Shown here piece after piece: positions 6,470-59,567 of a DNA stretch of 64,000 bases. The notes below the pieces were generated by a model. The model was given only the letters and a program-made list of their open reading frames with translations. It made no database searches and was not told the DNA's origin. The DNA is from Tissierellales bacterium (GTDB lineage: Bacteria > Bacillota > Clostridia > Tissierellales > Tissierellaceae), in NCBI GenBank assembly GCA_014360205.1, contig JACIXZ010000007.1, positions 1-64,000 of the forward strand, in the 5' to 3' direction. The position numbers and the translations under genes are program-made. Each line of letters begins with the position of its first letter. Position 1 is the first letter of the stretch.

Positions 6470-7277
6470 ATTAGTAGGATTAGATTTAGATGGGACACTT
6501 TTAAATGATGAGCATAAGATTTCAAATGAAAACAAAGCGATAATTGATAGTTTAAAGGAACTTGGAGTTAAAGTTGTTTTAGCTTCTGGTAGAGAGGTAG
6601 AGTCGATGATTTGGGCTAGCAATGAACTTAAACTTGACACGCCCCTAATTGCATTGAATGGTGCTATAGTAACTGATAATAAAGGAGAGAAAATCATATT
6701 TGATAAACCTTTGAATTTGATAAAAATAAAGGATTTGTTCATCGACTTATATAATAATGGAAGATTTATGCTTATATTTTTTAAAGACGAGGTCATAGCT
6801 ACCGACAATAATGATGATTATTTTAACTTGTTTATAAAATACAGCAATGTCATACCAAAAAGAGTAAACAATGTGGTTAAATATCTAGATGACAACAATC
6901 TGTGGGATTCTGTTTATAAGATAATTTTTTCCGATGAGGAAGAAGTCCTTATTAAATTAAGAGATGATCTAAGTGGGAAAATAGATGATGATTATAATCT
7001 AACTTTTTCAATGCCATTTTATTTAGAGCTTTATGATTCAAATGTTTCCAAAGGAATAGCATTGGAATTTGTAGCAAATATCTATGGAATAAATAATGAA
7101 GAGATAATGGCAATTGGAGATGGAGAAAATGACTTATCGATGATTGAGTTTGCCAAAATAGGAATAGCAATGGAAAATGCTCCTGATTTTATCAAAGAAA
7201 GAGCTAATTATATCACTAGTTCAAATATAGAAAATGGAGTATTCCATGCGATAAAAAAGTTCATATACAACGAATAG
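6462..7277 (+). CDS. Cof-type HAD-IIB family phosphatase
   Basis: A 271-residue HAD hydrolase of the Cof/IIB subfamily. Motif I is LDLDGTLLNDE (nucleophile Asp near residue 7), motif II is the serine in VLASGRE, motif III is the lysine in SKGIAL, and motif IV is GDGENDLSMI. The large C2B cap lies between motifs II and III. These enzymes dephosphorylate sugar phosphates and cofactors such as FMN or PLP; the substrate cannot be assigned. It overlaps the galU end by eight bases, so the two are probably translationally coupled. Confidence 0.88.
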   Translation: MIKLVGLDLDGTLLNDEHKISNENKAIIDSLKELGVKVVLASGREVESMIWASNELKLDTPLIALNGAIVTDNKGEKIIFDKPLNLIKIKDLFIDLYNNGRFMLIFFKDEVIATDNNDDYFNLFIKYSNVIPKRVNNVVKYLDDNNLWDSVYKIIFSDEEEVLIKLRDDLSGKIDDDYNLTFSMPFYLELYDSNVSKGIALEFVANIYGINNEEIMAIGDGENDLSMIEFAKIGIAMENAPDFIKERANYITSSNIENGVFHAIKKFIYNE

Positions 7278-7296
7278 CCCGATATTTCGGGCTATT
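7273..7296. terminator. Bidirectional terminator
   Basis: AATAGCCCGA and TCGGGCTATT form a perfect stem with the loop TATT, followed by TTT. It holds the stop codon of the HAD gene and reaches the last codons of the facing VTE6-like gene. Confidence 0.85.
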
Positions 7297-8098
7297 TTAA
7301 TACAACAAATACTAGCATTGAAGCGATTAAATTGCTTAGGAAATTCACCATATTGTTGTCAATTATGCCAATTCCTCTTACTTTTCTAGCATTTTTATTT
7401 GAGTTTATTTTCTTTTCTGTTAAACTTTGAGTTTCTTCGTCAAAATACTGTGCTTGCAAAGTAGCACCTAATATGCTGTCAATAATCGAGCCTAAAAAAC
7501 CTAAAATTAAGCTTATAAACATAAAATAAATGCTTTGGTTTAGATCTTTATAGAGTACAAAGCTAAATATAAATGCTAGTATTGATATTAACCCAGCTCC
7601 TAAAAATGAAGCAAACAAACCTACGGGTGATACACCTCCTGACAAACCTTTAGGAACAGGCTTTAATGTTATTATTTTTATAGGATTTTTTTTACTCAAA
7701 ATCCCTATTTCAGATGCCCATGTATCTGAAGTAGATATAGCAAAAGATACACAAAATGCTAAGAAAAATACTGGAGAATTGTATATATATTCTAATATAA
7801 CAAATATAAAACCCATAGCACCGTTTGCCAATACTTGAGTAAAATCTCTTTTTCCTGACTTTTGGTTGATTATTTCATATTTTGATTTAACATTTTCTTT
7901 ATATTTAGTAAGGAGGCTTGATGATATAAAGAAAGTGATTAAAATCAAAAAATGATATATGCTTCCAAAGGAATATATGACTGTGCCAAGTATAATCGCT
8001 GATATTGCTCCACTAATTGAAAGTGAGTTTTTCTTAAATGCTGGATATACAATAATCAATGAAAGTATAATTCCAATTAATATATCTAATATTTTCAA
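7292..8098 (-). CDS. DUF92 family membrane protein, VTE6-like (prenyl-phosphate kinase homologue)
   Basis: A 268-residue protein with about seven membrane segments and the DUF92 core: residues 84-96 RDFTQVLANGAMG, 122-139 STSDTWASEIGILSKKNP, then PVPKGLSGGVSPVGL. The plant and cyanobacterial member VTE6 phosphorylates phytyl phosphate to phytyl diphosphate. Here it follows a VTE5-like gene by 10 bases and a crtM-type synthase, so a role in turning a prenyl phosphate (farnesyl or geranylgeranyl) into the diphosphate used by the synthase is likely. That is inference from context; DUF92 proteins are often left unannotated. Confidence 0.8.
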   Translation of the reverse strand: MKILDILIGIILSLIIVYPAFKKNSLSISGAISAIILGTVIYSFGSIYHFLILITFFISSSLLTKYKENVKSKYEIINQKSGKRDFTQVLANGAMGFIFVILEYIYNSPVFFLAFCVSFAISTSDTWASEIGILSKKNPIKIITLKPVPKGLSGGVSPVGLFASFLGAGLISILAFIFSFVLYKDLNQSIYFMFISLILGFLGSIIDSILGATLQAQYFDEETQSLTEKKINSNKNARKVRGIGIIDNNMVNFLSNLIASMLVFVVLK

Positions 8099-8108
8099 GC
8101 CATCACCC

Positions 8109-8771
8109 CTATAAATATGCTAAGATATAGTAAATCAAACTCGAACCAAGGGGAACTGATAAATTGTCAAATCCCTTTGGTGTGAATAACTCTAATAATG
8201 TCGCAAAAACTGCCAAAACAAAAGAATAAATGATAATATTTGTCGGATTATAGATGCTTAAAATTATTAGGTTTACAATAAATGTTACAACAAACATAGT
8301 TAAACTGCCAATTAAGCTCTTTGTGCTGCCAAATATTTTATATTTCTTTCTACCATATCTTTTTCCTATAACAGCCGCCAATCCATCGCCATAGCCCATA
8401 GTGAGTATTCCTAATGCTCCAATATACGCATAATTGATATCTTTAAATGTTAGGATAGATAGTATGAATAATGATATAGCATAATATACTGTGCCTAAAT
8501 CTTCTTTGTCACCACCTCTTTCCATAGCTGTGAATAGATTCTTTCTATAAGATAAATAATTTAAAACTATAAATAAAGCAGGGACTATACTCGCATAAAT
8601 ATTGTTATCAAAAAATATCATTGCTAATATCCACCAGTTTGACACTCCAATATGAATGAATTTTCTGCTTCCTTCATCTTTTAAAATATTTTTCCTTGTC
8701 AATAGTGTAGATATTCCAATAATTAAAAATACAAACAATATAGAAATAATTATACCTAACAGATTGTTCAT
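8109..8771 (-). CDS. VTE5/DGK1/SEC59-type polyprenol kinase homologue
   Basis: A 220-residue integral membrane protein with about seven hydrophobic segments. It has the signature of CTP-dependent lipid-alcohol kinases (phytol kinase VTE5, dolichol kinase, diacylglycerol kinase Dgk1): RKFIHIGVSNWW near residue 36, GYGDGLAAVIGKRYG at 126-140 and STKSLIGSLTMF at 149-160. The expected reaction is phosphorylation of a prenol. The start codon overlaps the crtM stop (ATGA), so translation is coupled to the synthase. It is usually annotated as a phosphatidate cytidylyltransferase-like protein, but the neighbours argue for prenol kinase. Confidence 0.8.
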   Translation of the reverse strand: MNNLLGIIISILFVFLIIGISTLLTRKNILKDEGSRKFIHIGVSNWWILAMIFFDNNIYASIVPALFIVLNYLSYRKNLFTAMERGGDKEDLGTVYYAISLFILSILTFKDINYAYIGALGILTMGYGDGLAAVIGKRYGRKKYKIFGSTKSLIGSLTMFVVTFIVNLIILSIYNPTNIIIYSFVLAVFATLLELFTPKGFDNLSVPLGSSLIYYILAYL

Positions 8772-14286: not shown

Positions 14287-14330
14287 GAGATTATTCTAAG
14301 AACTAGTTTAATTGAAAGGATGAGCACTTG

Positions 14331-15236
14331 ATGGGCAATATTGTTGTTATAGGAAGTATAAATTTAGATTTAGTTGTTAAAGTTGACGAAATTCCTAAAA
14401 TAGGGGAAACAGTAATGGGAAATTCTATTTCGCAAATACCTGGAGGGAAAGGTGCAAATCAAGCTGTTGCCATGGCAAAATTAGGTTGTGAAGTAGACTT
14501 TTTAGGAAAGGTTGGCAATGATAGCTTTGCTGATATTGTTTTAAATTCTATGGAAGAATCAGGCGTAAATATAAAAAATATAAAAAGTGAAAATGCATCT
14601 ACTGGAATCGCAGTTATAAATGTAGATAAAAATGCTAACAACAACATTATAGTAATAGCTGGTGCAAACGGAAAAGTTGATGAAGCATATTTACTCGAGA
14701 ATGAAGAAATAATTGAAAAAGCAGAAGCGGTTGTTTTTCAGCTTGAGATACCAATAGAAACAGTAAAATATGGACTCAGACTTGCTAAGAAACACGATAA
14801 ACTAACAATACTAAACCCTGCACCAGCATATGAGTTAGACGATGAAATCATTGAAAATGTAGATATAATAATACCAAATGAGCATGAACTATCTAGGATA
14901 GCTAACAAAGAAATAAAAGATGAAAATTCCTTAATTGGAGCTTGTAAAATGTTGATAGGAAAAAATGTCAAAAGAATAATAGTCACATTAGGGGAAAAAG
15001 GGGCACTATATGTAGATGAACATGTTACCAAAATGTACCCTTCAAATAAAGTGAAAGCAGTTGATTCAACTGCCGCAGGGGATGCATTTATAGGTGGTTT
15101 TGTAGCTAATTATACTAAGACATATGATATTGATGATGCGATTGATATGGGGCAAAAAACTGCAGCTATTTCAATTCAAAGATTTGGTGCACAGACTTCA
15201 TTACCTACATTAGAAGAAGTATTAAATTTTAAATAG
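14331..15236 (+). CDS. rbsK: Ribokinase (PfkB family)
   Basis: It phosphorylates ribose to ribose-5-phosphate. The protein has about 301 residues with the PfkB motifs IGSINLDLVVKVDEIP, PGGKGANQAVAMAKLG and, near the C-terminus, DSTAAGDAFIGGF carrying the catalytic Asp and anion hole. ATG 14331 is chosen (AAAGGATG upstream); a TTG directly before it is also in frame. No ribose transporter or RbsD is next to it, only a lacI remnant, so it may now act as an orphan kinase. A related sugar such as deoxyribose cannot be excluded. Confidence 0.9.
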   Translation: MGNIVVIGSINLDLVVKVDEIPKIGETVMGNSISQIPGGKGANQAVAMAKLGCEVDFLGKVGNDSFADIVLNSMEESGVNIKNIKSENASTGIAVINVDKNANNNIIVIAGANGKVDEAYLLENEEIIEKAEAVVFQLEIPIETVKYGLRLAKKHDKLTILNPAPAYELDDEIIENVDIIIPNEHELSRIANKEIKDENSLIGACKMLIGKNVKRIIVTLGEKGALYVDEHVTKMYPSNKVKAVDSTAAGDAFIGGFVANYTKTYDIDDAIDMGQKTAAISIQRFGAQTSLPTLEEVLNFK

Positions 15237-27371: not shown

Positions 27372-28796
27372 ATGGATAATAAACAATTAGCTATACGAAT
27401 TGTTGAACTCGTAGGTGGTAAAGAAAACATAATAAAAGCAGCAAACTGCATGACTAGATTAAGAATAACTGTTAAAAATCCTAGTTTAGTAAATGAAACT
27501 GAGTTAAAAAACACAGAAGGAGTACTTGGAACAGTAATAGATGGGAATTATGCACAAATTGTTTTAGGACCTGGAAAAGCAAAAAAAGTTGCTGATATAT
27601 GCATTGATGAGCTTGGAATTCCAAGAGATTTTACAGTTGATGAAGATTGGATAGAAAACAAAGAAGAGATCAAAGCAATGCAAAAACAGAGTCCATTAAA
27701 AAACGCCATAAAAACTATAGCTGATATATTTATCCCTCTTATACCTGCAATTATTGCAGCTGGGCTATTTAATGGACTTGCTAGTTTAATTTCGACACTC
27801 CAAGGGCAAGCAATATTACCGGCTGAAGGTACATGGAAAGTCATCCAACTTTTATTTGCGCTTATTGGCGGTGGGTTCCTAGGATATTTCGCAATATATA
27901 CTGGTATAAATGCAGCAAAACAATTCGGTGCAACTGAAGGTTTAGGCGGAATGTTAGGTGCAATATCAATCAGTCCTAACATAGTTGCTATTTCGACTAT
28001 ATTTGGATTATATGATGCTGAAGTCCCACTAAAATCAATTTTGACTACAGGAAAAGGTGGGATAATAGGAGTTATTTTAGGAGTTTGGATACTATCAAAG
28101 ATTGAGAAAAGGATTAGAAAGAGAATACCTGATGTATTAGATTTAGTTGTAACACCATTTTTGACATTGTTAATAACTTCAGTATTATTTGTATTTATAA
28201 TTATGCCTGTTACTGGATATCTTTCAGATTTATTGGTTAGAGGTTTGAGTTTAATCATAGGGTCTCCTAATTCAATTGTTAACATAATAAGTGGATATAT
28301 TTTAGCAGCAATATTTCTACCAATGGTTTTATTAGGACTTCACCATGGGTTAATACCTATATATGCTATTCAGTTAGAAAATTTAGGTGGAGTATCATTA
28401 TTTCCTGTATTAGCAATGGCTGGTGCTGGGCAAGTAGGGGCTGCAATTGCAATTTATATTAAAGCCAAGAGAGTTGGCAATACTAGGATGCAAAAGGTAA
28501 TTACCGGTGCATTGCCAGCAGGTTTCTTAGGAGTTGGAGAACCACTCATATATGGAGTTACATTGCCTTTGTTTAAACCATTTATTACAGCTGGCTTAGG
28601 GGCAGGATTTGGTGGGGCTTATGTAATGCTTAGTAGAGTTATGGCTAATGCATGGGGACCATCTGGATTAGTTGCAATACCAATAATGAAACCAGAGTCA
28701 ATGTTAAACTACTTTATTGGATTAGTTATATCATATATAGCAGGTTTCATAATAACTTATTTTGTAATGAAAGATGATGAAGTAAAAAATGTCTAG
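27372..28796 (+). CDS. murP: PTS transporter EIIBC, MurNAc-type
   Basis: The protein has 474 residues. The N-terminal EIIB domain has the phosphocysteine C26 in AANCMTRLRITV. The EIIC membrane domain runs from about 110 to the end, with LLGLHHGLIPIY and GVGEPLIYGVTLP. It belongs to the glucose/sucrose superfamily and lacks EIIA, which is encoded two genes later. Its position between murQ and mupG supports MurNAc or MurNAc-containing disaccharide as substrate. The end overlaps mupG by eight bases. Confidence 0.88.
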   Translation: MDNKQLAIRIVELVGGKENIIKAANCMTRLRITVKNPSLVNETELKNTEGVLGTVIDGNYAQIVLGPGKAKKVADICIDELGIPRDFTVDEDWIENKEEIKAMQKQSPLKNAIKTIADIFIPLIPAIIAAGLFNGLASLISTLQGQAILPAEGTWKVIQLLFALIGGGFLGYFAIYTGINAAKQFGATEGLGGMLGAISISPNIVAISTIFGLYDAEVPLKSILTTGKGGIIGVILGVWILSKIEKRIRKRIPDVLDLVVTPFLTLLITSVLFVFIIMPVTGYLSDLLVRGLSLIIGSPNSIVNIISGYILAAIFLPMVLLGLHHGLIPIYAIQLENLGGVSLFPVLAMAGAGQVGAAIAIYIKAKRVGNTRMQKVITGALPAGFLGVGEPLIYGVTLPLFKPFITAGLGAGFGGAYVMLSRVMANAWGPSGLVAIPIMKPESMLNYFIGLVISYIAGFIITYFVMKDDEVKNV

Positions 28797-29835
28797 TAAT
28801 ATTAGTTTCTCAATTTATGTTTCAACATGGAGAGAAAACATAGAAGCTTTACCTTCTGTATATACAGATGGGGCTTCTGTTTTTACTTCATTGCATGTAC
28901 CAGAGGAAAACAATGAAGAATTTATCAATGAAGCTACAGAAATGATAAAAAGTGTTAAAAAGATTGGATATAATGTGATAGCTGATGTATCAAATAAAAC
29001 TTTATCCAATTTTAAAGTTACTAGTCTAGAAGAGCTTGCAAATTTATTACCCATAGATATCCTTAGAATTGATTATGGTTTTAATATTTCGGAAATCATT
29101 GAAATAAAAAATAATGTAAAGATAGCTATAAATGGATCTACAATCAATAAAAATCTTCTAGAAAAATTAAATGATACTCCTGAGCAACTAATCGCAATAC
29201 ACAATTTTTATCCTAGAGTTGATACAGGACTAGATGATAAACAATTTATTGATCTAAATAATATGTTATTAGAAAATAATTTTCGGATTTATACTTTCAT
29301 ACCTGGTGATTTGAATTTGAGAGGACCTGTTTATGAAGGGTTGCCTACTTTAGAAAGTCATAGAAATTGTTCACCATATGCTTGTTTTGTTGATATGCAT
29401 AAAAATTATTCAATTAATGATATCATTGTTGGAGATGGAATCATATCGCATGTAGAATATGATATGATAAAGTATTACAAAGAAAATAATGTTATAATCT
29501 TGCCTGTTGAGCTAGATGAAAATTATAAATATTTGGATGGGACAATTTTTAGTATAAGAGAAGACTCTCCATATTCTCTCTTGAGATTAAAGGAATCAAG
29601 AGAGTATGCTTTAATGGGCGATAAAATATATGACCATAATTGTATTAAGAGAATTAGAGGGTGTTTAACTATTGATAATTATAAATATGGCAGATATTCT
29701 GGTGAAATTCAAATTACAAAGAAAGATTATCAAGCAGATGAAAGAGTAAATGTTATCGGGCAAATTAAAGATGAATATATATTGCTTTTAAAGTGTATAA
29801 AAAATGGGGATAAAATTAAAATCATAAATGTTTAG
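28789..29835 (+). CDS. mupG: MupG-type 6-phospho-N-acetylmuramidase (DUF871)
   Basis: A 348-residue DUF871/MupG protein: an N-terminal TIM-barrel domain (FSIYVSTWRENIEALPSVYTDGASVFTSLHVPEE, DILRIDYGF, AIHNFYPRVDTGLD) and a C-terminal small beta domain (from about 240). MupG hydrolyses phosphorylated MurNAc-GlcNAc released from peptidoglycan, inside the cell. Overlap with murP and position next to murQ fit uptake and cleavage of a phosphorylated muro-disaccharide. Confidence 0.87.
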   Translation: MSSNISFSIYVSTWRENIEALPSVYTDGASVFTSLHVPEENNEEFINEATEMIKSVKKIGYNVIADVSNKTLSNFKVTSLEELANLLPIDILRIDYGFNISEIIEIKNNVKIAINGSTINKNLLEKLNDTPEQLIAIHNFYPRVDTGLDDKQFIDLNNMLLENNFRIYTFIPGDLNLRGPVYEGLPTLESHRNCSPYACFVDMHKNYSINDIIVGDGIISHVEYDMIKYYKENNVIILPVELDENYKYLDGTIFSIREDSPYSLLRLKESREYALMGDKIYDHNCIKRIRGCLTIDNYKYGRYSGEIQITKKDYQADERVNVIGQIKDEYILLLKCIKNGDKIKIINV

Positions 29836-29849
29836 GAAGTGAAGATTTG

Positions 29850-30344
29850 ATGTTTAATATATTTAAGAAAGACAAAAGTAATGAGATTGTAATAAAAACT
29901 CCAATTACTGGGAAAATTGTCAAAATTGAAGATGTACCAGATAATGTTTTTTCTGGTAAATTAGTTGGAGATGGAATAGCTATATTGCCTGATGACGAAT
30001 TCGTTTATTCTCCTTTTGATGGAGAGATAGTACAGATTGCTCCTCAAAAATATGCATTGGGGTTAAGGAACAAAGAGAATGTTGAATTATTGATCCATTT
30101 AGGTATAGATACAGTAAACTTAAAAGGAGAAGGGTTTAAAGTTTATGTCGAAAGAAATCAAAAAGTTAAAACTGGAGATAAACTCATTAAGGCAGACTGG
30201 CAATATATTTCAAAGAATGCAAAATCAACAATTTCTCCTATAGTTATAACAAATATGGAAGTAGTTAAGGAAATAATAATTACAGAAGCCGAATATGTGC
30301 ATGCAGGAGATAATATTTTTACAATCATATTGAACGATAGATAA
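29850..30344 (+). CDS. PTS glucose-type EIIA component
   Basis: A 164-residue stand-alone EIIA of the Crr type. The phosphohistidine is H83 in ELLIHLGIDTVNLKGEGF; KTPITGKIVKIEDVPDNVFSGKLVGDGIAI and SPFDGEI form the beta sandwich. It would accept phosphate from HPr and pass it to the MurP EIIB. ATG 29850 is used; an in-frame TTG precedes it directly. As the last gene before a terminator it belongs to the mur operon. Confidence 0.9.
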   Translation: MFNIFKKDKSNEIVIKTPITGKIVKIEDVPDNVFSGKLVGDGIAILPDDEFVYSPFDGEIVQIAPQKYALGLRNKENVELLIHLGIDTVNLKGEGFKVYVERNQKVKTGDKLIKADWQYISKNAKSTISPIVITNMEVVKEIIITEAEYVHAGDNIFTIILNDR

Positions 30345-30352
30345 CTATATAA

Positions 30353-30384
30353 AAAATCGAGTCAGCACATTGCTGCTCGATTTT
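30353..30384 (+). terminator. Rho-independent terminator of the mur operon
   Basis: AAAATCGAG/CAGC pairs with GCTG/CTCGATTTT (one bulged T) around ACATT, followed by TTTATTTT. Confidence 0.8.
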
Positions 30385-30429
30385 ATTTTGCTTTAAAATA
30401 GGGTATCATAGACCAAAGGGGGCATTTGA

Positions 30430-31593
30430 ATGAAATTATTGATTAAAAATGCAAGAGTAATAACTCCATATGAAATTTTAAATGACAAAAGTATAATAGT
30501 TGAAAATGGGAAAATAGTTGATATTACTTCTGATGAAGTAGAACCGAAAAATTTTTTAGAATTCATCGATGCTAAATCAAATTATCTTTCCCCAGGATTT
30601 ATAGATATACACAATCATGGAAATTCAGGTTATGATTTTATGGATGCAAATTTTGATGCTTTTGATGAAATTTCGAAATTCCACTTAAAAAATGGGGTAA
30701 CTTCATATCTGTTAACTACTATTACATCGAAGCATGAAGATTTAATCAATGTATTAAATGCAGGTAGTGAATATATTGACTCTGATATGAGGTATTCAAA
30801 TATGGTTGGCATATATTTAGAAGGACCATATTTTTCTAAAGAAAAGAAAGGTGCTCAACCAGAAAAATATCTTAAAAATCCAACAATAGAAGAAATAGAT
30901 GAATTCATAAAAGCTTCAAATAATCGCCTTAAAGTTGTTTCAATTGCACCAGAGATGGAAAATTCATTCGGTGCAATTAGATATCTGAAAGATAAAGGAA
31001 TTAAAGTTGCTTTGGGGCATACAAATTCAACTTTTGATATCGCTAGAAAAGCTATTGATTCAGGAGCAAGTATAGCCACACATCTTTACAATGGGATGAG
31101 ATCATTTAGCCATAGGGAGCCTGGGATAATCGGTGCTTGCTTAACTGATGAGAGAGTTAAATGTGAATTAATTGCAGATATGATTCATATCCATAAAGCA
31201 GCTTTAAAGCTTGCCATAGATGTGAAAGGATCTGACTCTATAATTCTAATATCAGATGCAATGATGGCAGCAGGCAAAGCTGATGGAATGTACAAATTGG
31301 GTGGACAAGATGTTACAGTTAAAGAAGGAAAGGCAATATTAAATGATGGCACAATTGCAGGCTCTACGTTGACACTAGATAGGGCAGTATTTAATCTTGT
31401 GCATCATGTAGGTATAAAATTAAGTGATGCTGTTAGGATGGCTAGTTTATCTGCTGCTAAAGCGATCGGAATTGATGATAAAAAGGGAAGTATAGAGATA
31501 GGAAAAGATGCTGACATGATTAAATTTGACGAAAACTTAAAGATTTTGAACACTATTGTCAATGGTGAAGTTCGCTATTATAGAGAAATATAA
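30430..31593 (+). CDS. nagA: N-acetylglucosamine-6-phosphate deacetylase
   Basis: It converts GlcNAc-6-phosphate, the MurQ product, to glucosamine-6-phosphate and acetate. It has 387 residues in an amidohydrolase fold: GFIDIHNHGNSGYDFMD, the metal glutamate in YLEGPYFSKEKKGA, GHTNST, THLYNGMRSFSHREPG and the catalytic aspartate in ISDAMMAAG. GGGGGC precedes ATG 30430. It follows the mur operon terminator by 45 bases, so it may be transcribed partly by readthrough. NagB is not in the window. Confidence 0.93.
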   Translation: MKLLIKNARVITPYEILNDKSIIVENGKIVDITSDEVEPKNFLEFIDAKSNYLSPGFIDIHNHGNSGYDFMDANFDAFDEISKFHLKNGVTSYLLTTITSKHEDLINVLNAGSEYIDSDMRYSNMVGIYLEGPYFSKEKKGAQPEKYLKNPTIEEIDEFIKASNNRLKVVSIAPEMENSFGAIRYLKDKGIKVALGHTNSTFDIARKAIDSGASIATHLYNGMRSFSHREPGIIGACLTDERVKCELIADMIHIHKAALKLAIDVKGSDSIILISDAMMAAGKADGMYKLGGQDVTVKEGKAILNDGTIAGSTLTLDRAVFNLVHHVGIKLSDAVRMASLSAAKAIGIDDKKGSIEIGKDADMIKFDENLKILNTIVNGEVRYYREI

Positions 31594-31648: not shown

Positions 31649-31677
31649 TTGATATTAACTGTTTTACTTCATATAAT
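31649..31677 (+). promoter_or_regulatory. Predicted sigma-A promoter for the mannitol operon
   Basis: TTGATA (31649-31654), 17 bases and TATAAT (31672-31677) stand 32 bases before the mtlA start. Confidence 0.7.
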
Positions 31678-31708: not shown

Positions 31709-33130
31709 ATGTCAGATATGTCTAGTAGTCTACAAAGTTCAACTGGTGGGAAAGGACAAAATATTCAAAGATTTGGCAGAGTTTTAAGTGGCATGGTCAT
31801 GCCAAACATAGGAGCATTTATCGCTTGGGGATTAATAACAGCGATATTCATTCCTACTGGTTGGTGGCCAAATGAAAATTTAGCATCACTAGTCGGACCG
31901 ATGATAACATATTTGCTTCCATTGCTCATTGGGTATACTGGAGGTAGAAATGTCGCAGGACAAAGAGGTGCAGTTATCGGTGCAATAGCTACTATGGGTG
32001 TTGTAGTAGGTGCTGATGTGCCAATGTTTTTAGGAGCTATGTTGGTAGGACCTTTAGCAGCTTATCTAATAAAGAAATTCGATAAAGCTATTGAAGGAAA
32101 GGTAAGAGCAGGATTTGAGATGTTGGTTGACAATTTCTCACTAGGAATATTAGGTGCGATTCTTGCAATTTTATCTTATTTAGCAATTGGACCATTAGTA
32201 GAAGGACTAAATAATATTTTAAAATCTGGTGTAGAAGCAATAGTAAATGCTGGATTGTTGCCATTAACATCTATTTTCATCGAACCAGGCAAAATTCTTT
32301 TCTTAAACAATGCTATTAATCATGGAGTATTGGGGCCAATTGGCATCCAAGAAGCTGAAGAAGTTGGTAAATCAATATTTTTCTTGCTTGAAACAAATCC
32401 TGGCCCTGGATTAGGTATATTATTAGCATATTGGGTATTCTCAAAAGGATCAGTTAAACAATCAGCTCCTGGAGCAGTAATAATTCACTTTTTAGGTGGA
32501 ATACATGAAATATATTTCCCATATGTTTTGATGAATCCTATTTTGGTATTAGCTGTAATTGCTGGAGGAGCAAGTGGTGTATTGACATTTTCATTATTTA
32601 ATGCAGGATTAGTTGCAACTCCTTCACCAGGTAGTATAATTGCTTTAATGGCAATGACACCAAAAGGCAATTATCTAGGTGTGTTAGCAGGAGTAGCGGT
32701 ATCAGCTGCAGTATCATTTTTGGTTGCATCATACTTTGTGAAGAGAAATTCAGATAAAATAAGTGATGAAGACTTATCTGGTGCAAAAGAAAAAGTAAAA
32801 GAGATGAAATACAAACCACAAGATAATACAGTTACAAACGGAGTTTTGACAAATGTAGATAAAATAGTATTTGCTTGTGATGCTGGTATGGGATCAAGTG
32901 CAATGGGTGCGACTACTTTAAAAAACAAGCTCAAAAAAGCTGGTTTAGATATTGAAGTTATACATTGTGCAATTGAGGAAATACCATCCGATGCAAAAGT
33001 AATAATAACCCACAAGAGCTTGACAGAAAGAGCTAGAGCAAAGGCACCAAATGCTTATCATGTTTCCATTGACAATTTTATTAACAGTCCTGAATACGAC
33101 AAACTTGTTGACAGACTATTAGGCAAATAA
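31709..33130 (+). CDS. mtlA: PTS mannitol transporter EIICB
   Basis: The protein has 473 residues. The EIIC membrane domain (about 20-345) shows the mannitol-family blocks [38 protein letters not shown] and [16 protein letters not shown]. The EIIB domain follows with phosphocysteine C390 in [22 protein letters not shown] is separate (mtlF). It takes up mannitol as mannitol-1-phosphate. A strong hairpin separates it from mtlR. Confidence 0.93.
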
Positions 33131-33134
33131 TTGT

Positions 33135-33164
33135 GTAAGCAGCGGAATTTATTTCGCTGCTTAC
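33135..33164 (+). terminator. Intra-operon hairpin between mtlA and mtlR
   Basis: GTAAGCAGCG pairs perfectly with CGCTGCTTAC around a ten-base loop; TTTAAA follows instead of a long T run. It may act as an attenuator or mRNA-stabilising end for mtlA. Confidence 0.6.
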
Positions 33165-33182
33165 TTTAAAGAGGTGATAGTA

Positions 33183-35255
33183 GTGATTTCAATTAAACTC
33201 ACCCAAAGGCAAAGAGGGATCATAGAACTCTTAATCAAGGAAGATAGATTTTTTACTGTATCTGAAATAGCTAAGAAAATAAATGTGAGCAATAGGACAG
33301 TATCTAGAGAACTTAGGGATTTAGATTCATATTTAGGTTACTTTTCATGCTCGATTGATAGCCGATCGGGAAAAGGCATTCGGTTTGTGGGAAGCGAACG
33401 GAGTAGAGAATTACTTTTGGATAATATTAAAAAAAGTGGAGAAATTAAGAATTACACGCAAAGTCAAAGAATGGTATATATATTGACTGAACTCTTGAAT
33501 GCAAGTGAACCATTAAAAATCAACAATTTTACTATTGAATTAAATGTTACGGAAGGAACTATAAGTCACGATTTAGATAGAGTTAGTGAAAGACTAGAAA
33601 AATATGGATGCAAATTAATTCGCAAACCTGGTGTTGGATTCTACGTAGATGCAAATGAATCTGACAAGAGGAGGGCAATAGTTGATTTAATATATGAAAA
33701 TATAGAAGAGACGGAACTTATTGACATTATTAGAAATAAAGATAGATTGAGTGTAGAAACAAGAGAAAATCTTGTAAACTTAATAAGTAAAAACACATTG
33801 TATGAGTTAGAGAGGTTATTAATTGACAATGAAAACAAACTAAAAACAACTTTAAATGATAGGGCATATATTGGTTTGCTCATACATTTAGCAATCGCAA
33901 TAGATAGAATAAATAAGGGCGAAAATATAATCATCGACAAAGATTATTTAAATATATTAAAAAAATGTGATGAATATTTAGAAGCAGAGAAACTCGCAAA
34001 GGCTATTGGGAAAAAGTTTAACATTTCCATGCCTGAAGATGAAATAGGGTACATTACAATGCATATCATAGGTAATGCAGGGACTAAAACAACTCAAATA
34101 GATGATGAAGTAATTATGATTTCTTCAAGAATCCTTTCAAATGCATATAGTGAGTTGGGATTGAATGCAAAAATTGATAGGCAGTCTATAATTTGGCTAG
34201 CAACACACTTGCAAACAGCACTTTATAGAATAAGAATGAATATGGAAATAAGGAATCCTCTTTTAGAAGAAATAAAAAACAATTATACAGATATTTACAA
34301 AGTTGCAATAAAAGCAGTGAACCCTATTGAAATAGAACTTGGCATAAAGATGCCTGATTCTGAAATAGCATATATAGCGATGCATATCGGAGCATCGGTT
34401 GAAAGGAACAGGAAAAATTTTATCAAATATGATGTACTTGTCGTATGTGCAACTGGAATGGGTACAGCTACACTTCTTTCAACGAGATTACAAAATGAAT
34501 ATCAAAATTTAAATATAGTAGATGTGGTTTCTTCACTAAATATTGAAGAAGTGATAGAAACAACCAGAGATATTGATTTTATTATATCCACTATTCCAAT
34601 TGACTATGGGAAAATACCTTTAGTAGTGGTTAACCCACTTTTGCTTAGTGATGATAAAAGATTAATCGATGAATTTTTAAAAAATTTCAATATAATCGAT
34701 AAAAATAAGGGGGTAAAAACCTCTAAATCAACAGCCAAAAAAGATCTTAATAGTTTAAAAGAATATTTGGATGCAATACTTGAAGTGCTTAACAACCTTG
34801 TTGTAGTAGATATGCTAGAAAAAGAAAGCATAAACTCATTGATTGATCACATAAGTAGTACAATTGGTAGAAACGAGATTGAAGTTACAAATATAAAAGA
34901 AGGATTGCTTAGGAGAGAAACCTTAGGAAGTACAGTATTAGATCAATATAATGCAGTTTTGCTTCATGCAAAAACCACAGGTGTTGATAGGCTTATATTT
35001 GGGGCTATAAGGCTTTTAAAGCCAATATATATAGAGAATGATGGAAATTCAAATAAAATAGATTTAGCAATAATAATGCTTGCGCCTAAAAATATAAATA
35101 ATAATAAGCTAAGTGTTATGAGTTTTCTAAGCTCAAAGATTATCGAAGATGAGAAATTTTTATTTACTTTAAGAAATTCCGAAAAAGACATGATATATGA
35201 GTTGTTAGAAGATTATTTAAATGAATTTTATGAAAGAGTTCATTATGAAAATTAG
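33183..35255 (+). CDS. mtlR: MtlR-type PTS-regulated transcriptional activator
   Basis: The protein has 690 residues in the MtlR/LicR order. Helix-turn-helix domains come first (ISIKLTQRQRGIIELL, FTVSEIAKKINVSNRTVSRELRDLD). Two PRDs follow, each with the histidine motif DEIGYITMHIIGNAG or DSEIAYIAMHIGASVERN. Then an EIIB-like domain with the cysteine in VLVVCATGMGTATLLSTRLQ, and a C-terminal EIIA-like domain with a histidine in VLLHAKTTGVDRLIFG. Activity would be set by phosphorylation from HPr and the mannitol EII proteins. GTG 33183 follows GAGGTGA; an in-frame GTG at 33174 overlaps that site. Confidence 0.9.
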   Translation: MISIKLTQRQRGIIELLIKEDRFFTVSEIAKKINVSNRTVSRELRDLDSYLGYFSCSIDSRSGKGIRFVGSERSRELLLDNIKKSGEIKNYTQSQRMVYILTELLNASEPLKINNFTIELNVTEGTISHDLDRVSERLEKYGCKLIRKPGVGFYVDANESDKRRAIVDLIYENIEETELIDIIRNKDRLSVETRENLVNLISKNTLYELERLLIDNENKLKTTLNDRAYIGLLIHLAIAIDRINKGENIIIDKDYLNILKKCDEYLEAEKLAKAIGKKFNISMPEDEIGYITMHIIGNAGTKTTQIDDEVIMISSRILSNAYSELGLNAKIDRQSIIWLATHLQTALYRIRMNMEIRNPLLEEIKNNYTDIYKVAIKAVNPIEIELGIKMPDSEIAYIAMHIGASVERNRKNFIKYDVLVVCATGMGTATLLSTRLQNEYQNLNIVDVVSSLNIEEVIETTRDIDFIISTIPIDYGKIPLVVVNPLLLSDDKRLIDEFLKNFNIIDKNKGVKTSKSTAKKDLNSLKEYLDAILEVLNNLVVVDMLEKESINSLIDHISSTIGRNEIEVTNIKEGLLRRETLGSTVLDQYNAVLLHAKTTGVDRLIFGAIRLLKPIYIENDGNSNKIDLAIIMLAPKNINNNKLSVMSFLSSKIIEDEKFLFTLRNSEKDMIYELLEDYLNEFYERVHYEN

Positions 35256-35274
35256 AAATATGGAGGTCTAAAAA

Positions 35275-35754
35275 ATGGGGTTAAATCTGTTTTCTAGTAA
35301 AAACAAAAGAGCAGATGAAGGAAATGTAGATGTTTTATTAAAAGAGAATATTTTGTTAAATTTACACAATATGGATAAGTATGATGCTATTAGGTTTGCA
35401 GGAGAACTTTTAGTCAAGAGTGGCTGTGTCGACGAAGCCTATATTGACGCTATGATAGAAAGGGAAAATGATTTAACCACATATATTGGCTGTGGAGTGG
35501 CTATACCCCATGGAGTTGGAAAAGCAAAGGAATTTATTAAGAAATCAGGCATAGTTATCTTACAATTTCCTGATGGAGTTGACTTCGATGGTCAAAAAGC
35601 ATATCTAGTAATTGGAATTGCTGGGAAAGGCGATGAGCATTTAAGCATTTTAGCCAATGTCGCTACTATTATCAGTGAAGATGAAGAAAAGTTAAAAGAA
35701 CTCATAAAAACTAATGACGTAGATTTTATTTATTCTACTTTTACAGCTAAATAA
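35275..35754 (+). CDS. mtlF: PTS mannitol EIIA component
   Basis: A 159-residue EIIA of the mannitol/fructose class. The active histidine is H79 in YIGCGVAIPHGVGKAKEFI, preceded by the typical YIDAMIERENDLTTY. It passes phosphate from HPr to MtlA. GGAGG lies upstream. It follows mtlR by 19 bases in the same operon. Confidence 0.92.
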   Translation: MGLNLFSSKNKRADEGNVDVLLKENILLNLHNMDKYDAIRFAGELLVKSGCVDEAYIDAMIERENDLTTYIGCGVAIPHGVGKAKEFIKKSGIVILQFPDGVDFDGQKAYLVIGIAGKGDEHLSILANVATIISEDEEKLKELIKTNDVDFIYSTFTAK

Positions 35755-35770
35755 AGAGGGAGGAAAAGAA

Positions 35771-37024
35771 ATGAAAACAAAAGCAGTAAGATTATATGGG
35801 GCAAATGATTTGAGATTGGAGGAATTTGAACTTCCTGAGATAAAAGACGATGAAATACTAGTTGAGATAATCTCAGACAGCATTTGCATGTCAACTTATA
35901 AATGTGCAATATTAGGAGAAAAACATAAAAGAGTACCAAAAGATGTTTCTGAAAATCCGATAATTATTGGGCATGAATTTGCTGGTAATATCGTAAAAGT
36001 CGGTAAAAAGTGGCAAGATAAATTTAAGCCAGGTACTAAATTTGCGCAACAACCAGCTTTAAATTACAAAGGGAGCATGGCTTCGCCTGGATATTCATAT
36101 ATGTATTTTGGTGGCGATGCAACTTATGCAATAGTGCCGCCTGAAGTAATGGAATTAGGGTGTTTGATTAACTATAAGGGTGATGCATATTATGAAGCGA
36201 GTTTAGCTGAGCCTATGTCATGTATAATAGGTGCATATCACGCAACATATCATACAGAAATGGGAAAATATACTCACTTTATGGGAATAAAAGAAAATGG
36301 GAATTTAGCTATCTTAGCTGGAGCTGGACCAATGGGTCTTGGAACTATTGATTATGCTTTACATGGAGATAAAAATCCTAAGCTTGTAGTAGTTACTGAT
36401 GTTGACAGCAATAGACTAAAAAGAGCAAGAGAAATTTTTGAGGATGAGGCCAATAAATGTGGAATAAAGCTAATTTTTGTAAATACAAAAGAATTAGCTG
36501 ATCCAGACATGTATTTAATGGAAATTTCTGAAGGGCATGGATATGACGATGTATTTGCCATGGCACCTGTGAGAGAAGTAGTGGAACAGGCTGATAGGAT
36601 ATTGGCTAGGGATGGTTGTTTGAACTTTTTTGCAGGCCCTACTGATACTAATTTCAAAGGCGAAATTAACTTCTATAACGTCCACTATAATTCAACTCAT
36701 GTTATGGGGACGACAGGCGGAAATACAGATGATTTAATTGAGTCTTTAAAGCTTACTGAAAATAAAAGAATAAATCCAGCATGTATGGTAACTCATATAG
36801 GTGGATTAGACAGTGTCATTGATACTACGTTGAATTTGCCAAAGATTCCAGGAGGCAAAAAATTAATCTATACTCAAATTAACATGCCATTAACAGCAAT
36901 TGACGACTTTAGGGAGAAAGCAAAGGAAGACAAGAGATTTGAAAAACTAGCAGAAATAGTTGAAAACAACAAGGGATTATGGAGCGTTGAAGCAGAAAAA
37001 TATTTGCTTGAAAATTTCAAATAA
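35771..37024 (+). CDS. Zinc-binding medium-chain dehydrogenase (YggP-like)
   Basis: A 417-residue MDR-superfamily alcohol dehydrogenase. The catalytic zinc region shows SICMSTYKC and GHEFAGNIVKVG, then LAEPMSCIIGAYHA; the Rossmann domain begins ILAGAGPMGLGTIDYAL with DVDSNRLKRA. It resembles E. coli YggP, which lies in the cryptic mannitol PTS locus (cmtAB), and sorbose-1-phosphate reductases. It stands where mtlD is expected, so it likely oxidises the hexitol phosphate from the PTS; no MtlD-family protein is present. The substrate is inferred only from position. Confidence 0.8.
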   Translation: MKTKAVRLYGANDLRLEEFELPEIKDDEILVEIISDSICMSTYKCAILGEKHKRVPKDVSENPIIIGHEFAGNIVKVGKKWQDKFKPGTKFAQQPALNYKGSMASPGYSYMYFGGDATYAIVPPEVMELGCLINYKGDAYYEASLAEPMSCIIGAYHATYHTEMGKYTHFMGIKENGNLAILAGAGPMGLGTIDYALHGDKNPKLVVVTDVDSNRLKRAREIFEDEANKCGIKLIFVNTKELADPDMYLMEISEGHGYDDVFAMAPVREVVEQADRILARDGCLNFFAGPTDTNFKGEINFYNVHYNSTHVMGTTGGNTDDLIESLKLTENKRINPACMVTHIGGLDSVIDTTLNLPKIPGGKKLIYTQINMPLTAIDDFREKAKEDKRFEKLAEIVENNKGLWSVEAEKYLLENFK

Positions 37025-37118
37025 GATATTTTCATTTTATGGTTGCTCTTTTATAACTTAAAAGGTAAAATATTTATTGTATATAAATTAGCAAATATTT
37101 AATAGAGAGGGTTATGCT

Positions 37119-37382
37119 ATGAAAAAATTAGAAGTAACACTTGAAAATGAAACTGGTTTACATGCTAGACCTGCTAGTCTTTTGGTTAAAGAGGCTTCAA
37201 AGTACAAGTCTAACATAACTATTGAATTAGATGGGCAAGAGTATGTTGCCAAAAGTATAATGTCTGTTCTGAGCATGGGTGCTGGGAAAGGGACTCATTT
37301 GGTTTTTAAAGCTGAAGGAGAAGATGAAGAAGCTGCTATCGCAGGAATAAAAAGTTTAGTTGATAACAATTTTGGAGAATAA
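37119..37382 (+). CDS. ptsH: HPr phosphocarrier protein
   Basis: An 87-residue HPr. H15 in ENETGLHARPASLLV takes phosphate from enzyme I, and S46 in YVAKSIMSVLSMGAGKG is the site used by HPr kinase in Gram-positives. It lies 95 bases after the dehydrogenase and ends at a strong terminator. No ptsI is beside it, so it could be a second, operon-specific HPr rather than the general one. Confidence 0.93.
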   Translation: MKKLEVTLENETGLHARPASLLVKEASKYKSNITIELDGQEYVAKSIMSVLSMGAGKGTHLVFKAEGEDEEAAIAGIKSLVDNNFGE

Positions 37383-37412
37383 GAAAACGCACGATTTATC
37401 GTGCGTTTTCTT
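37381..37412. terminator. Bidirectional terminator
   Basis: A perfect 15-base stem (AAGAAAACGCACGAT and its complement) around TT, A/T-rich on both sides, between HPr and the facing UPF0173 gene. Confidence 0.9.
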
Positions 37413-37413
37413 A

Positions 37414-38091
37414 TTAAAATGAATAACTTTCTCCAATTTCAAGTACTTTTGTATCACTATAGATATTTTTCTTTTTAAACTCTAATGGGTCTGCTTTTAT
37501 AAGTGGGAAAGTATTGTAGTGCATTGGTATAGTAAGTTTAGGTTCAATAAGCTTGACTGCTTTTACTGCATCATCAATATCCATGGTGTAATTCCCCCCG
37601 ATTGGCAAAATAGCAATGTCTATACCATCATCTCTTAACAGTTTCATGTCTGTAGAAAGGCCGGTATCCCCAGCATAATATATTTTTTTACCCTTTATTT
37701 CTAATAGAAAACCACATGGATTTCCAGCATATAATATTCCTTCATCAGTTTCTATAGATGATCCATGAAGTGCTGGAGTAAGCTTTACCTTTCCAAAATC
37801 AAATTTATAGCTACCTCCTATGTGCATTGGGTGTGTTTCAACACCAAAAGTAGAAAGATATCCAGCAATTTCAGCATTGGTAATTACCAATGCATCATTT
37901 GCGTTTGCCAAATCAATGGTGTCACCAAGGTGATCTTGATGACCATGTGATACGAATATATGGGTTATGTCGTTGATGTCAGTGGGTAGAACTTTAGCTA
38001 ACGGATTTCCTGTTATAAAAGGGTCAAATATAGCTTTGAACCCGTCTGATTCTAATATGAACACTGAATGGCTTAAATATGTTAGTTTCAT
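37414..38091 (-). CDS. UPF0173 family metal-dependent hydrolase
   Basis: A 225-residue protein with a metallo-beta-lactamase fold of the UPF0173/YtkL type: LTYLSHSVFILESDG at the start, the metal motif FVSHGHQDHLGDTIDLA, ALHGSS, IYYAGDTGLSTDMKLL and IPMHYNTFPLIKADP at the end. The substrate is unknown. A GGAGG stands upstream of ATG 38091. Confidence 0.88.
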   Translation of the reverse strand: MKLTYLSHSVFILESDGFKAIFDPFITGNPLAKVLPTDINDITHIFVSHGHQDHLGDTIDLANANDALVITNAEIAGYLSTFGVETHPMHIGGSYKFDFGKVKLTPALHGSSIETDEGILYAGNPCGFLLEIKGKKIYYAGDTGLSTDMKLLRDDGIDIAILPIGGNYTMDIDDAVKAVKLIEPKLTIPMHYNTFPLIKADPLEFKKKNIYSDTKVLEIGESYSF

Positions 38092-40567: not shown

Positions 40568-41913
40568 ATGTCCGGATAACAAATTATATTATTTTATTAG
40601 ACTTGGTTTTAAAATAATATAATTAGGATTTATTTTCTCGATGCCTAATGCATTAATTAATTTAAAACCGTATCTGGAGCTGAATGCATCAAATGGAGAT
40701 TGGTCATTCAGCTTCTTTCTTGTATAAGAATTTACATGAGACATAACCAAACGGATATCTGCCTGTGTTAGATGATCCATGCTACTTCCTTTTGGTAGTA
40801 TTCTGCGAATTAATTGATGATTATTTTCAACTTCTGGCTTCAAATATGCAGAATAAGGATAGCAATAAAATACATTTGTCAGCTTCTCTTCACTTTGTAT
40901 TTTTCAATTTTACCTGGATCTGAAAATTCACTTCCATTATCAGTCAATATTACAGGAAATAATGCTTTATAATCCTCAGCACCAACCGCTTCGTAAATAC
41001 ATTTAAACCACTCTGTAACACTTCTAGCATCATTTGAATCTCTTAAGAACATAAGCATAAATGAAGTATCAATAAAGTGTATTGTAAGTAAAACCTTACC
41101 GCCTTTTCTACCCTCTACAGTATCCATTTCAACAATAGAAATATCTTTGTTATCATTTAGAAAATCTAGGTAATCATCGTACCTTCTACCTTTTAAACAA
41201 GACTTATCAACCTTGTATCCCATTTGTTTTTTCTTTCTAGCATGATATCTAACTTTTCTAGGCAAATCGATATTATTAACAGACAAGATACCATTATCAA
41301 TATATTTATACAATGTTTTTTCACTAATCATAATAATATCTTTGTTATTTGCATAAATATGATGTATTGATTGTCCTTGACTAACTAATGGAGTAATAAT
41401 ATCACAAGTCACTTTAATCTCCTCATGAGAATATTCAATACCAGATCTAGAATCAACCAATATTTTCTCATAATCTTTTTGAGCTACTTTAGCTGAATAA
41501 AGCTTCTTGGTAAGAGTGTATTTATTCCTATCATTGCAGCCATTGCAAACATAGGGAGAGATAGTTAGTTTATTACATAGGTCTTCTTTAAAATATTGAC
41601 AGTTACTATTGCAATTTTCACAAAACCTGCAGTAGCTAACATGTTTATTGCATTTACTATTCTTGCAAATATTCCTAATATCACAATCGAATCTATGAAT
41701 ACATGCATTATAGCAACGGCCATAGCAACCATTTTTATTGAAGGTGGATCTAAGAGAAATCTCCCTAGAAATGGTGGATTTATGTCTATTTAGTTCTCTT
41801 GAAATTACTGATAATGAAGATCCTGATTTTAGTAGTTCTTGAATAGTCAATCTATCATCATAAGTTAAATGTTTAGCCATAATAGTTCCTCCTTGGAGCT
41901 ATTATCCGGACAT
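40568..41913 (-). mobile_element. IS30-family insertion sequence (defective)
   Basis: ATGTCCGGATAA at 40568-40579 and its exact complement at 41902-41913 bracket an IS30-type transposase gene, giving an element of about 1,346 bp. No clear target duplication is seen. The transposase is frameshifted, so it is probably not autonomous. Confidence 0.7.
40589..41880 (-). pseudogene. IS30-family transposase, frameshifted
   Basis: The start MAKHLTYDDRLTIQELLKSG with the helix-turn-helix SVISRELNRHKSTISREI is the IS30 signature, followed by a cysteine-rich region (about residues 48-120). The DDE core shows IVEMDTVEG (first Asp) and VILTDNGSEF (second Asp). Near 40890 the frame is lost after EKYKV. 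The other frame continues EKLTNVFYCYPYSAYLKPEVENNHQLIRRIL with the catalytic glutamate region and runs to 40589. One base was probably lost. Start ATG 41880 follows AAGGAGG. Confidence 0.8.
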
Positions 41914-58659: not shown

Positions 58660-58679
58660 ATTTCTGTGGGGGTGATATT

Positions 58680-59567
58680 GTGAAAGATTTAGATTTCCTC
58701 GAAGCCGTAAAAAGAATGCAAGCAGATGAACTTATGGAGAGAGAAGTATATTTAAGACTTCTAAAAAACATAAACAATGAAAATGATAAAAATATTCTAA
58801 AGAAAATAGCTGATGAGGAATCAGGACATTATGAAATTTGGAAAAACTATACTAAAACAGATGTCAAACCTAACATGCTAAAAGTTAGATGGTATGTGTT
58901 TTTAGGTAGATTATTAGGATACACATTCACTGCTAAGATAATGGAAAAAAAATTAAATGAATTTAATCAGACAATTACTGAAGAATTCAAAGCTGAACTA
59001 ACTCATAAAATACCAGATATCGACATAATTTTAAAAGAAGAAGATGAACATGAAATGGAGCTACTAAGCATGATAGACGAGGAACGCTTTCAATATGTTG
59101 GCTCAATTGTTTTAGGCTTAAATGATGCTCTAGTTGAGTTTACTGGAAGTCTTGCTGGTTGGACTTTTGCTATGCAAAGCAATAGACTTGTGTTATTAGC
59201 AGGGATTATAGCGGGTATATCTGCAACACTTTCTATGGCATCTTCGGAATATTTGTCTACGAAAAACGAAGGTGGAAGAGATGCTTTAAAATCAGCAATT
59301 TATACTGGATTTGCTTATTTAATTACCGTTTTGTTGCTTTTGGTACCATATGCTATATTACCGGATAAAAGCTATAGTATAGCTTTGCTGATCATGATAG
59401 GATTAGTAGTTGCTATTATTGCTGCATTTAATTATTATATTTCTATTGCTAAAGATTTATCATTTAGAAACAAATTTAAAGAAATGGCTTCAGTGAGCTT
59501 GGGAGTTGCTGCAGTATCCTTTCTAATAGGTCTTTTAGTTAAACAATTTTTAGGTATTGATATATAA
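58680..59567 (+). CDS. Ferritin-like/VIT1 fusion, iron or manganese transporter
   Basis: The protein has 295 residues. Residues 1-135 form a rubrerythrin-like helical domain with E-x-x-x-x-Y and D-E-E-S-G-H motifs (ADELMEREVY, IADEESGHYEIW) and a late EEDEHEMELL, giving the diiron ligands. Residues about 140-295 are a VIT1/CCC1 domain with five membrane segments (GLNDALVEFTGSLAGWTFAM, MASSEYLSTKNEG). Related fusions (MbfA) export iron under stress. GTG 58680 follows GGGGGTGA. A metal-type palindrome lies just upstream. Confidence 0.87.
   Translation: MKDLDFLEAVKRMQADELMEREVYLRLLKNINNENDKNILKKIADEESGHYEIWKNYTKTDVKPNMLKVRWYVFLGRLLGYTFTAKIMEKKLNEFNQTITEEFKAELTHKIPDIDIILKEEDEHEMELLSMIDEERFQYVGSIVLGLNDALVEFTGSLAGWTFAMQSNRLVLLAGIIAGISATLSMASSEYLSTKNEGGRDALKSAIYTGFAYLITVLLLLVPYAILPDKSYSIALLIMIGLVVAIIAAFNYYISIAKDLSFRNKFKEMASVSLGVAAVSFLIGLLVKQFLGIDI

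Follow-up and report, generated by a model that had tools for sequence, protein, structure and literature searches.

A SorE/YggP-type zinc dehydrogenase in place of MtlD in mannitol phosphotransferase loci, and a proposed mannitol route through fructose-1-phosphate

The stretch of DNA analysed here (the window, 64,000 nucleotides of a Tissierellales genome) contains a mannitol phosphotransferase system (PTS) operon in which a zinc-dependent dehydrogenase of the SorE/YggP type is found and mtlD, the gene for mannitol-1-phosphate 5-dehydrogenase, is not. Across sampled loci with mtlA this dehydrogenase replaces MtlD, and its mannitol-linked copies are tied to FruK, the 1-phosphofructokinase. Considering this association together with the stereochemistry of the hexitol phosphates, we regard it as probable that mannitol is processed through mannitol-1-phosphate to fructose-1-phosphate by the dehydrogenase, and from there to fructose-1,6-bisphosphate by FruK.

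Replacement of MtlD in mtlA loci

The source genome is a 1.98 Mb draft assembly of 78 contigs, listed as 100% complete, with the window on contig 67. It belongs to the same genus as Soehngenia longivitae, the closest relative with a name among the loci recovered, whose dehydrogenase is 94% identical. The run mtlA-mtlR-mtlF-dehydrogenase-ptsH is intact at 31709-37382, with every gene on the + strand and intergenic gaps of 43, 19, 16 and 94 bp, in that order, by the gene coordinates. The mtlA product (31709..33130, +; 473 residues) is a mannitol PTS EIICB that scores 547 bits against TIGR00851 (cut-off 468.4) and 717 bits against NF011663 (cut-off 589). It is followed by mtlR (33174..35255, +), encoding a PRD-type regulator of 693 residues with the Pfam domains HTH_11, PRD (two stretches), PTS_IIB (IIB-like) and PTS_EIIA_2, and by mtlF (35275..35754, +), encoding a mannitol PTS EIIA of 159 residues with the domain PTS_EIIA_2. 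Against NCBIfam, MtlF scores best with the EIIA portion of NF011663 and stays under the cut-off that is set for the whole IICBA. A mannitol-type EIICB, an EIIA and a PRD regulator are thus present in one run, as in a mannitol PTS operon.

The dehydrogenase (35771..37024, +; 417 residues) is 56% identical over its full length to YggP of Escherichia coli MG1655, whose gene adjoins cmtA and cmtB. Full-length identity to the products of three annotated plasmid sorE genes is 47.9-50.6%, and a Lactiplantibacillus sorbose-operon member shows 46.5% identity. This full-length similarity places the enzyme in the SorE/YggP family of zinc-dependent medium-chain dehydrogenases/reductases (MDR). Its only Pfam domains are ADH_N and ADH_zinc_N, and PF08125, the MtlD family, is not among them. 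The AlphaFold (AF2) model is confident, with a pLDDT (predicted local distance difference test) of 93.9. Among the PDB matches listed for it, MDR alcohol and polyol dehydrogenases rank best (Z up to 36.6), for example sorbitol, butanediol and threonine dehydrogenases. The operon differs from that of SorE proper, which has a mannose-family sorbose PTS and SorD, a short-chain dehydrogenase/reductase (SDR): here the enzyme stands with mtlA, mtlR and mtlF, and no SDR is present.

Residues C39, H68, E69 and E147 are conserved in at least 97% of 168 alignment rows and, by analogy with other MDR enzymes, are expected to be the catalytic zinc ligands. Likewise, K44, H52, K53, K363 and K364 are identical across the mannitol-linked, YggP-type, SorE and SrlD/FGGY-linked rows, and position 54 is Arg except in the sorbose-PTS rows, which have Lys. 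The mannitol-linked copies, the YggP-type group included, are set apart from the rest at residues 105, 113 and 143, which are candidates only. The second Rossmann strand ends in Asp210, which suggests that the cofactor is NAD.

To sample mtlA loci without regard to the dehydrogenase, we drew evenly 391 genomes of the class (24 matched) and 398 of the phylum (43 matched), two genomes being in both draws. This gave 70 loci in total, whose neighbours, like those of the larger set below, were labelled by BLAST against marker proteins. The SorE/YggP-type dehydrogenase was present in 18 of these loci, MtlD in 47, both enzymes in none and neither in five, two of which (L256, L262) stop at a contig edge. 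The 70 loci are not fully independent, because closely related genomes occur in the draws (of the 18 loci with the dehydrogenase, three are from Soehngenia). A larger set was centred on the dehydrogenase itself and combined 91 neighbourhoods (90 from a class-wide list of homologs and one besides, the partial or distant matches that end this list being left out) with 80 named loci and the E. coli locus. Where loci agreed in the final 300 residues of the dehydrogenase, only one entered the count, which left 165 distinct loci, 72 of them mannitol-linked and 93 others. An MtlD-like gene lies within 6 kb of the dehydrogenase in two of the 165, neither of them mannitol-linked, and PF08125 proteins occur elsewhere in some genomes that bear the dehydrogenase. 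We therefore claim the mutual exclusion of the two enzymes for mtlA loci only.

An original prediction made from the letters of the window had described the operon as mtlA-mtlR-mtlF-dehydrogenase-HPr, with a YggP-like zinc MDR enzyme, unrelated to MtlD, in the latter's place. The gene coordinates and family models confirm the gene order, and the identity to YggP and the two ADH domains agree with the family assignment. A search for mtlD elsewhere in the source genome found nothing that matches PF08125, the C-terminal domain of MtlD, at E 0.001, and this result, along with the lack of any mtlA locus with both enzymes, upholds the replacement. The prediction's suggestion of a non-homologous hexitol-phosphate dehydrogenase did not anticipate fructose-1-phosphate, in place of fructose-6-phosphate, as the likely product.

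In the tree of the dehydrogenase, 67 of 71 mannitol-linked copies fall in one large group (72 rows; support by the Shimodaira-Hasegawa-like approximate likelihood ratio test, SH-aLRT, 98). The remaining four, YggP among them, fall in one small separate group, where YggP stands with L099, L108, L119 and L244 (SH-aLRT 89). One further copy, in locus L184 of Anaerospora hongkongensis (6992-8257), belongs to an mtlA-mtlF-DeoR-fruK-HPr operon and has an in-frame stop; it was counted as mannitol-linked and left out of the tree and of alignment A2, which comprises 41 sequences (the window enzyme and 40 from named loci).

Other settings of the dehydrogenase were also observed. An E2 gene is nearby in 43 of the 165 loci, and a large second group (for example L045, L048 and L072), without mannitol PTS, has a DeoR regulator and 2-oxoacid-dehydrogenase-like E1/E2/E3 genes, often with a sorbitol-6-phosphate dehydrogenase and sometimes with a PHP-domain protein. 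In L058, L059, L062, L066, L077, L078, L080, L084 and L085 the dehydrogenase is beside an FGGY kinase of the rhamnulokinase type, with an ABC solute-binding protein in some loci; this arrangement perhaps serves the use of L-sorbose via a kinase in place of a PTS. A divergent group (L108, L111, L113, L126-L129) has a class II aldolase together with a SorC/DeoR-like regulator as neighbours.

Association of the dehydrogenase with FruK

In the set of 70 mtlA loci, 9 of the 18 with the dehydrogenase have FruK in the neighbourhood, versus 3 of the 47 with MtlD (Fisher p 2e-4). When two PfkB-family matches of 24-28% identity are dropped, the count becomes 9/18 versus 1/47 (p 1.3e-5). The larger set displays the same tie: FruK is near 41 of the 72 mannitol-linked loci at an identity of at least 42%, or near 48 of the 72 if seven FruKs of lower identity are added, and near only 3 of the 93 others (L193, L206, L245), all three of which lie within the mannitol clade of the dehydrogenase tree. 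In 44 of the 48 FruK-bearing mannitol-linked loci fruK is located directly 5' of the dehydrogenase gene, on either strand.

All 18 FruKs tested score over the 1-phosphofructokinase cut-off (16 linked to the dehydrogenase, one from the MtlD operon L265 and one from a fru-type cluster); the L312 FruK (35% identity) lay outside this test. A role as 6-phosphofructokinase or tagatose-6-phosphate kinase was rejected, given that the tested proteins pass as 1-phosphofructokinases and miss the cut-offs for tagatose-6-phosphate kinase and 6-phosphofructokinase II where these are listed.

The arrangement of these genes varies between lineages, with the order mtlA-mtlR-mtlF-fruK-dehydrogenase in Clostridium, fruK-dehydrogenase-DeoR-mtlA in Lachnospiraceae, and mtlA divergent from fruK-dehydrogenase-DeoR in Agathobaculum (with mtlR) and Coriobacteriia. 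Most operon FruKs form one group of the FruK tree (47 rows, SH-aLRT 84). Those of L179/L180, L183/L229, L197 and L184 fall outside it, with fru-type or E. coli FruK; they comprise the Anaerospora type (L184), a fru-type gene downstream of mtlA (L179, L180), a divergent lone fruK (L183, L229) and a FruK from a divergent fru operon (L197). The different gene orders and the separate placement of FruK lineages point to repeated recruitment of FruK and not to one inherited cassette. On the dehydrogenase tree, an average of 3.3 out of five independent contrasts pair FruK with mannitol linkage, and none runs the opposite way.

The proposed route and its alternatives

SorE reduces L-sorbose-1-phosphate to sorbitol-6-phosphate (PMC12817954), a reaction at the carbon adjoining the phosphate. 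By Fischer bookkeeping from the phosphate end, mannitol-1-phosphate and glucitol-6-phosphate share the configuration of carbons 2, 3 and 4, and carbon 5 alone sets them apart. Oxidation beside the phosphate yields D-fructose-1-phosphate from mannitol-1-phosphate and L-sorbose-1-phosphate from glucitol-6-phosphate; oxidation of mannitol-1-phosphate at the far end, as by MtlD, yields fructose-6-phosphate. Fructose-1-phosphate is the substrate of FruK.

In the proposed route, MtlA and MtlF would take up mannitol as mannitol-1-phosphate, with the phosphate delivered via PtsI and the operon HPr. The SorE-type dehydrogenase would then oxidise C2, beside the phosphorylated carbon, with NAD to give D-fructose-1-phosphate, which FruK would convert to fructose-1,6-bisphosphate, so that MtlD and 6-phosphofructokinase would both be bypassed. 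FruK would be supplied by an unlinked ptsI/EIIA/DeoR/fruK/fruA cluster in Soehngenia and from inside the mannitol operon in many relatives. We infer the substrate of the dehydrogenase, the carbon oxidised, the product, the direction and the cofactor; for fructose-1-phosphate as product, the grounds are the FruK linkage and the stereochemistry.

Genes for fructose-1,6-bisphosphatase (FBPase) accompany the dehydrogenase in some loci, for the most part ones linked to mtlA. Their presence would also fit, since FBPase helps when fructose-1,6-bisphosphate is the entry point of carbon. These genes belong to two families and are found in L186 (9066-11015), L190, L222, L230, L235 and L248, with yggF in L171. 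The mannitol-linked loci contribute six of 72 (five of one family, YggF of the other), and the 93 others contribute one (L235, inside the mannitol clade). No FBPase was found in 61 further mtlA loci, nine of which have the dehydrogenase.

Several observations weigh against the proposed route. The window operon has no fruK, and neither FruK nor a FruK-like gene of lower identity is nearby in 24 of the 72 mannitol-linked loci. The FruK of the source genome that scores over the cut-off sits in the unlinked fru cluster, and FruK is encoded elsewhere in all nine sampled dehydrogenase-type genomes without a linked copy (the source genome included), a check that the route could have failed and did not; but FruK is also present in 11 of 12 MtlD-type genomes, so the nine hardly discriminate. 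One MtlD operon (L265) has a true FruK, the only one of its genome over the threshold used, although this FruK nests within the lineage of the dehydrogenase operons. Furthermore, the 80 named loci of the larger set were chosen for likeness to mannitol-linked enzymes, five contrasts put significance out of reach, some of the separate FruK placements are unsure because the FruK tree has long branches, and FBPase is a weak sign because of its small count.

The most serious alternative, which we consider unlikely, is that the enzyme is an ordinary substitute for MtlD and oxidises mannitol-1-phosphate at the far carbon to fructose-6-phosphate. Its occupation of the MtlD position, the absence of loci with both enzymes and the 24 mannitol-linked copies without a nearby FruK are all in agreement with such a role. 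It would, however, leave FruK without a function although FruK is tied to the dehydrogenase operons and hardly to MtlD operons; the characterised relatives (SorE) act beside the phosphate, with identical expected zinc ligands and basic residues; and the FBPase of a few loci would be hard to explain were fructose-6-phosphate the direct product.

It is still less probable that a broad MtlA-like transporter lets the operon handle a different polyol, for example sorbitol or arabitol, with L-sorbose-1-phosphate formed by the dehydrogenase from sorbitol. Membership of SorE in the family is compatible with this idea, but MtlA clears the mannitol EIIC model with a margin, no SrlD-type sorbitol-6-phosphate dehydrogenase scores over the family cut-off in the source genome, and SrlD is near only 1 of the 72 mannitol-linked loci versus 35 of the 93 others. 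To our knowledge the source genome would also have no onward enzyme for L-sorbose-1-phosphate. Operation in reverse, from fructose-1-phosphate to mannitol-1-phosphate as a redox sink or osmolyte route, seems to us very improbable. SorE is indeed named for the reducing direction and the source genome has a fructose-type PTS with FruK; yet the dehydrogenase is encoded alongside a PTS for uptake and a regulator of the PRD type, and the FruK co-located in relatives would compete for fructose-1-phosphate.

HPr, genomic setting and relation to known systems

The last gene of the operon, ptsH (37119..37382, +), encodes an HPr of 87 residues (TIGR01003, 95.9 bits, over the cut-off) with the phosphorylatable His15 and the regulatory Ser46 in the stretches GLHARPA and AKSIM. 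Each of the three Soehngenia genomes has two HPr-family matches, of which only the operon copy has His15; the second carries Gln15 in all three and, in the source genome, lies on contig C34 (L007) at 58678-58917. From this Gln15 we take it to be Crh-like, and its neighbour, recognised by eye, is presumably whiA. The single ptsI over the cut-off in the source genome lies on a different contig, where it immediately precedes a fructose cluster in the order EIIA, DeoR-type regulator, fruK, fruA, where the labels other than ptsI and fruK are our assignments by eye. The operon HPr is most likely the general HPr serving every PTS of the cell, because it is the only His15 form found, the second protein has Gln15 and the sole ptsI is at the unlinked fructose cluster. 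The original prediction was thus right that an HPr gene closes the operon without ptsI; its dedicated mannitol carrier is rejected, given that its proposed search for a second ptsH turned up the Gln15 protein.

A promoter-like site (TTGATA-17-TATAAT, 11/12 consensus match) precedes mtlA at 31649..31677 (+); such matches are frequent in the region (44 versus a mean of 30.2 in shuffles), and the match does not count as evidence for a function. A perfect 18-nt inverted repeat with no strand assigned (37378..37415) follows ptsH and adjoins a convergent gene at 37414-38091 (-); it is a probable two-way terminator common to both genes. No catabolite-responsive (cre) site was found near the operon, and the window has one match versus 3.9 expected. 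Directly upstream, 27372-31593 encodes a PTS IIBC nearest to the N-acetylmuramic acid type (below the cut-off), a MupG 6-phospho-N-acetylmuramidase, a glucose-type EIIA and NagA, a cluster probably devoted to peptidoglycan-sugar recycling. Elsewhere in the window, 14328-15236 encodes a sugar kinase of the PfkB family that does not reach the cut-off for 1-phosphofructokinase, and 40589-41880 (-) contains what we take, from its appearance, to be a transposase frame, seemingly split into 40879-41880 and 40589-40843.

The arrangement resembles cmtAB-yggP-yggF of E. coli, where YggP is also beside a mannitol-type EIICB and EIIA and where the FBPase gene yggF adjoins yggP; unlike the window operon, the E. 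coli stretch examined has no HPr gene, and it has no fruK. With SorE the dehydrogenase shares the expected zinc ligands, the basic residues and, as expected, the carbon chemistry. The two differ at residues 105, 113 and 143, and SorE is accompanied by a mannose-type sorbose PTS and an SDR, which we take to be SorD, without FruK in the stretches examined. MtlD has the same operon place and, as proposed, the same substrate, but it is of an unrelated family and its product is fructose-6-phosphate. The proposed last step, from fructose-1-phosphate to fructose-1,6-bisphosphate by FruK, is that of the fructose PTS operon (fruA-fruK), whose transporter, unlike the mannitol route, makes fructose-1-phosphate directly.

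The title of a 1971 paper on Clostridium thermocellum mentions both fructose-1-phosphate kinase and mannitol-1-phosphate dehydrogenase. In a Shigella annotation, yggP_1 is termed an alternative version of mtlD (PMC11708030). In the open-licence literature, as far as its text was accessible and with most subscription journals outside the search, no description of a route from mannitol-1-phosphate to fructose-1-phosphate was found, nor, in the accessible open-licence texts, a proof of function for YggP. The components of the route are all of known kinds; what would be new is how they are combined and where carbon enters.

Taken across lineages, it appears likely, if somewhat less so than the route itself, that a SorE-type enzyme and FruK constitute a second bacterial PTS mannitol pathway, shared by many Clostridia and further Bacillota along with some Coriobacteriia, with E. 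coli cmtAB-yggP-yggF as a version in which FBPase would supply fructose-6-phosphate. Since annotation and metabolic models route PTS mannitol via MtlD to fructose-6-phosphate, genomes with this operon may be called mannitol-negative or be given the wrong step. If the proposal is correct, the entry of mannitol as fructose-1-phosphate would skip 6-phosphofructokinase, shift the point of carbon entry relative to the pentose phosphate pathway and link mannitol to fructose-1-phosphate as a regulatory signal.

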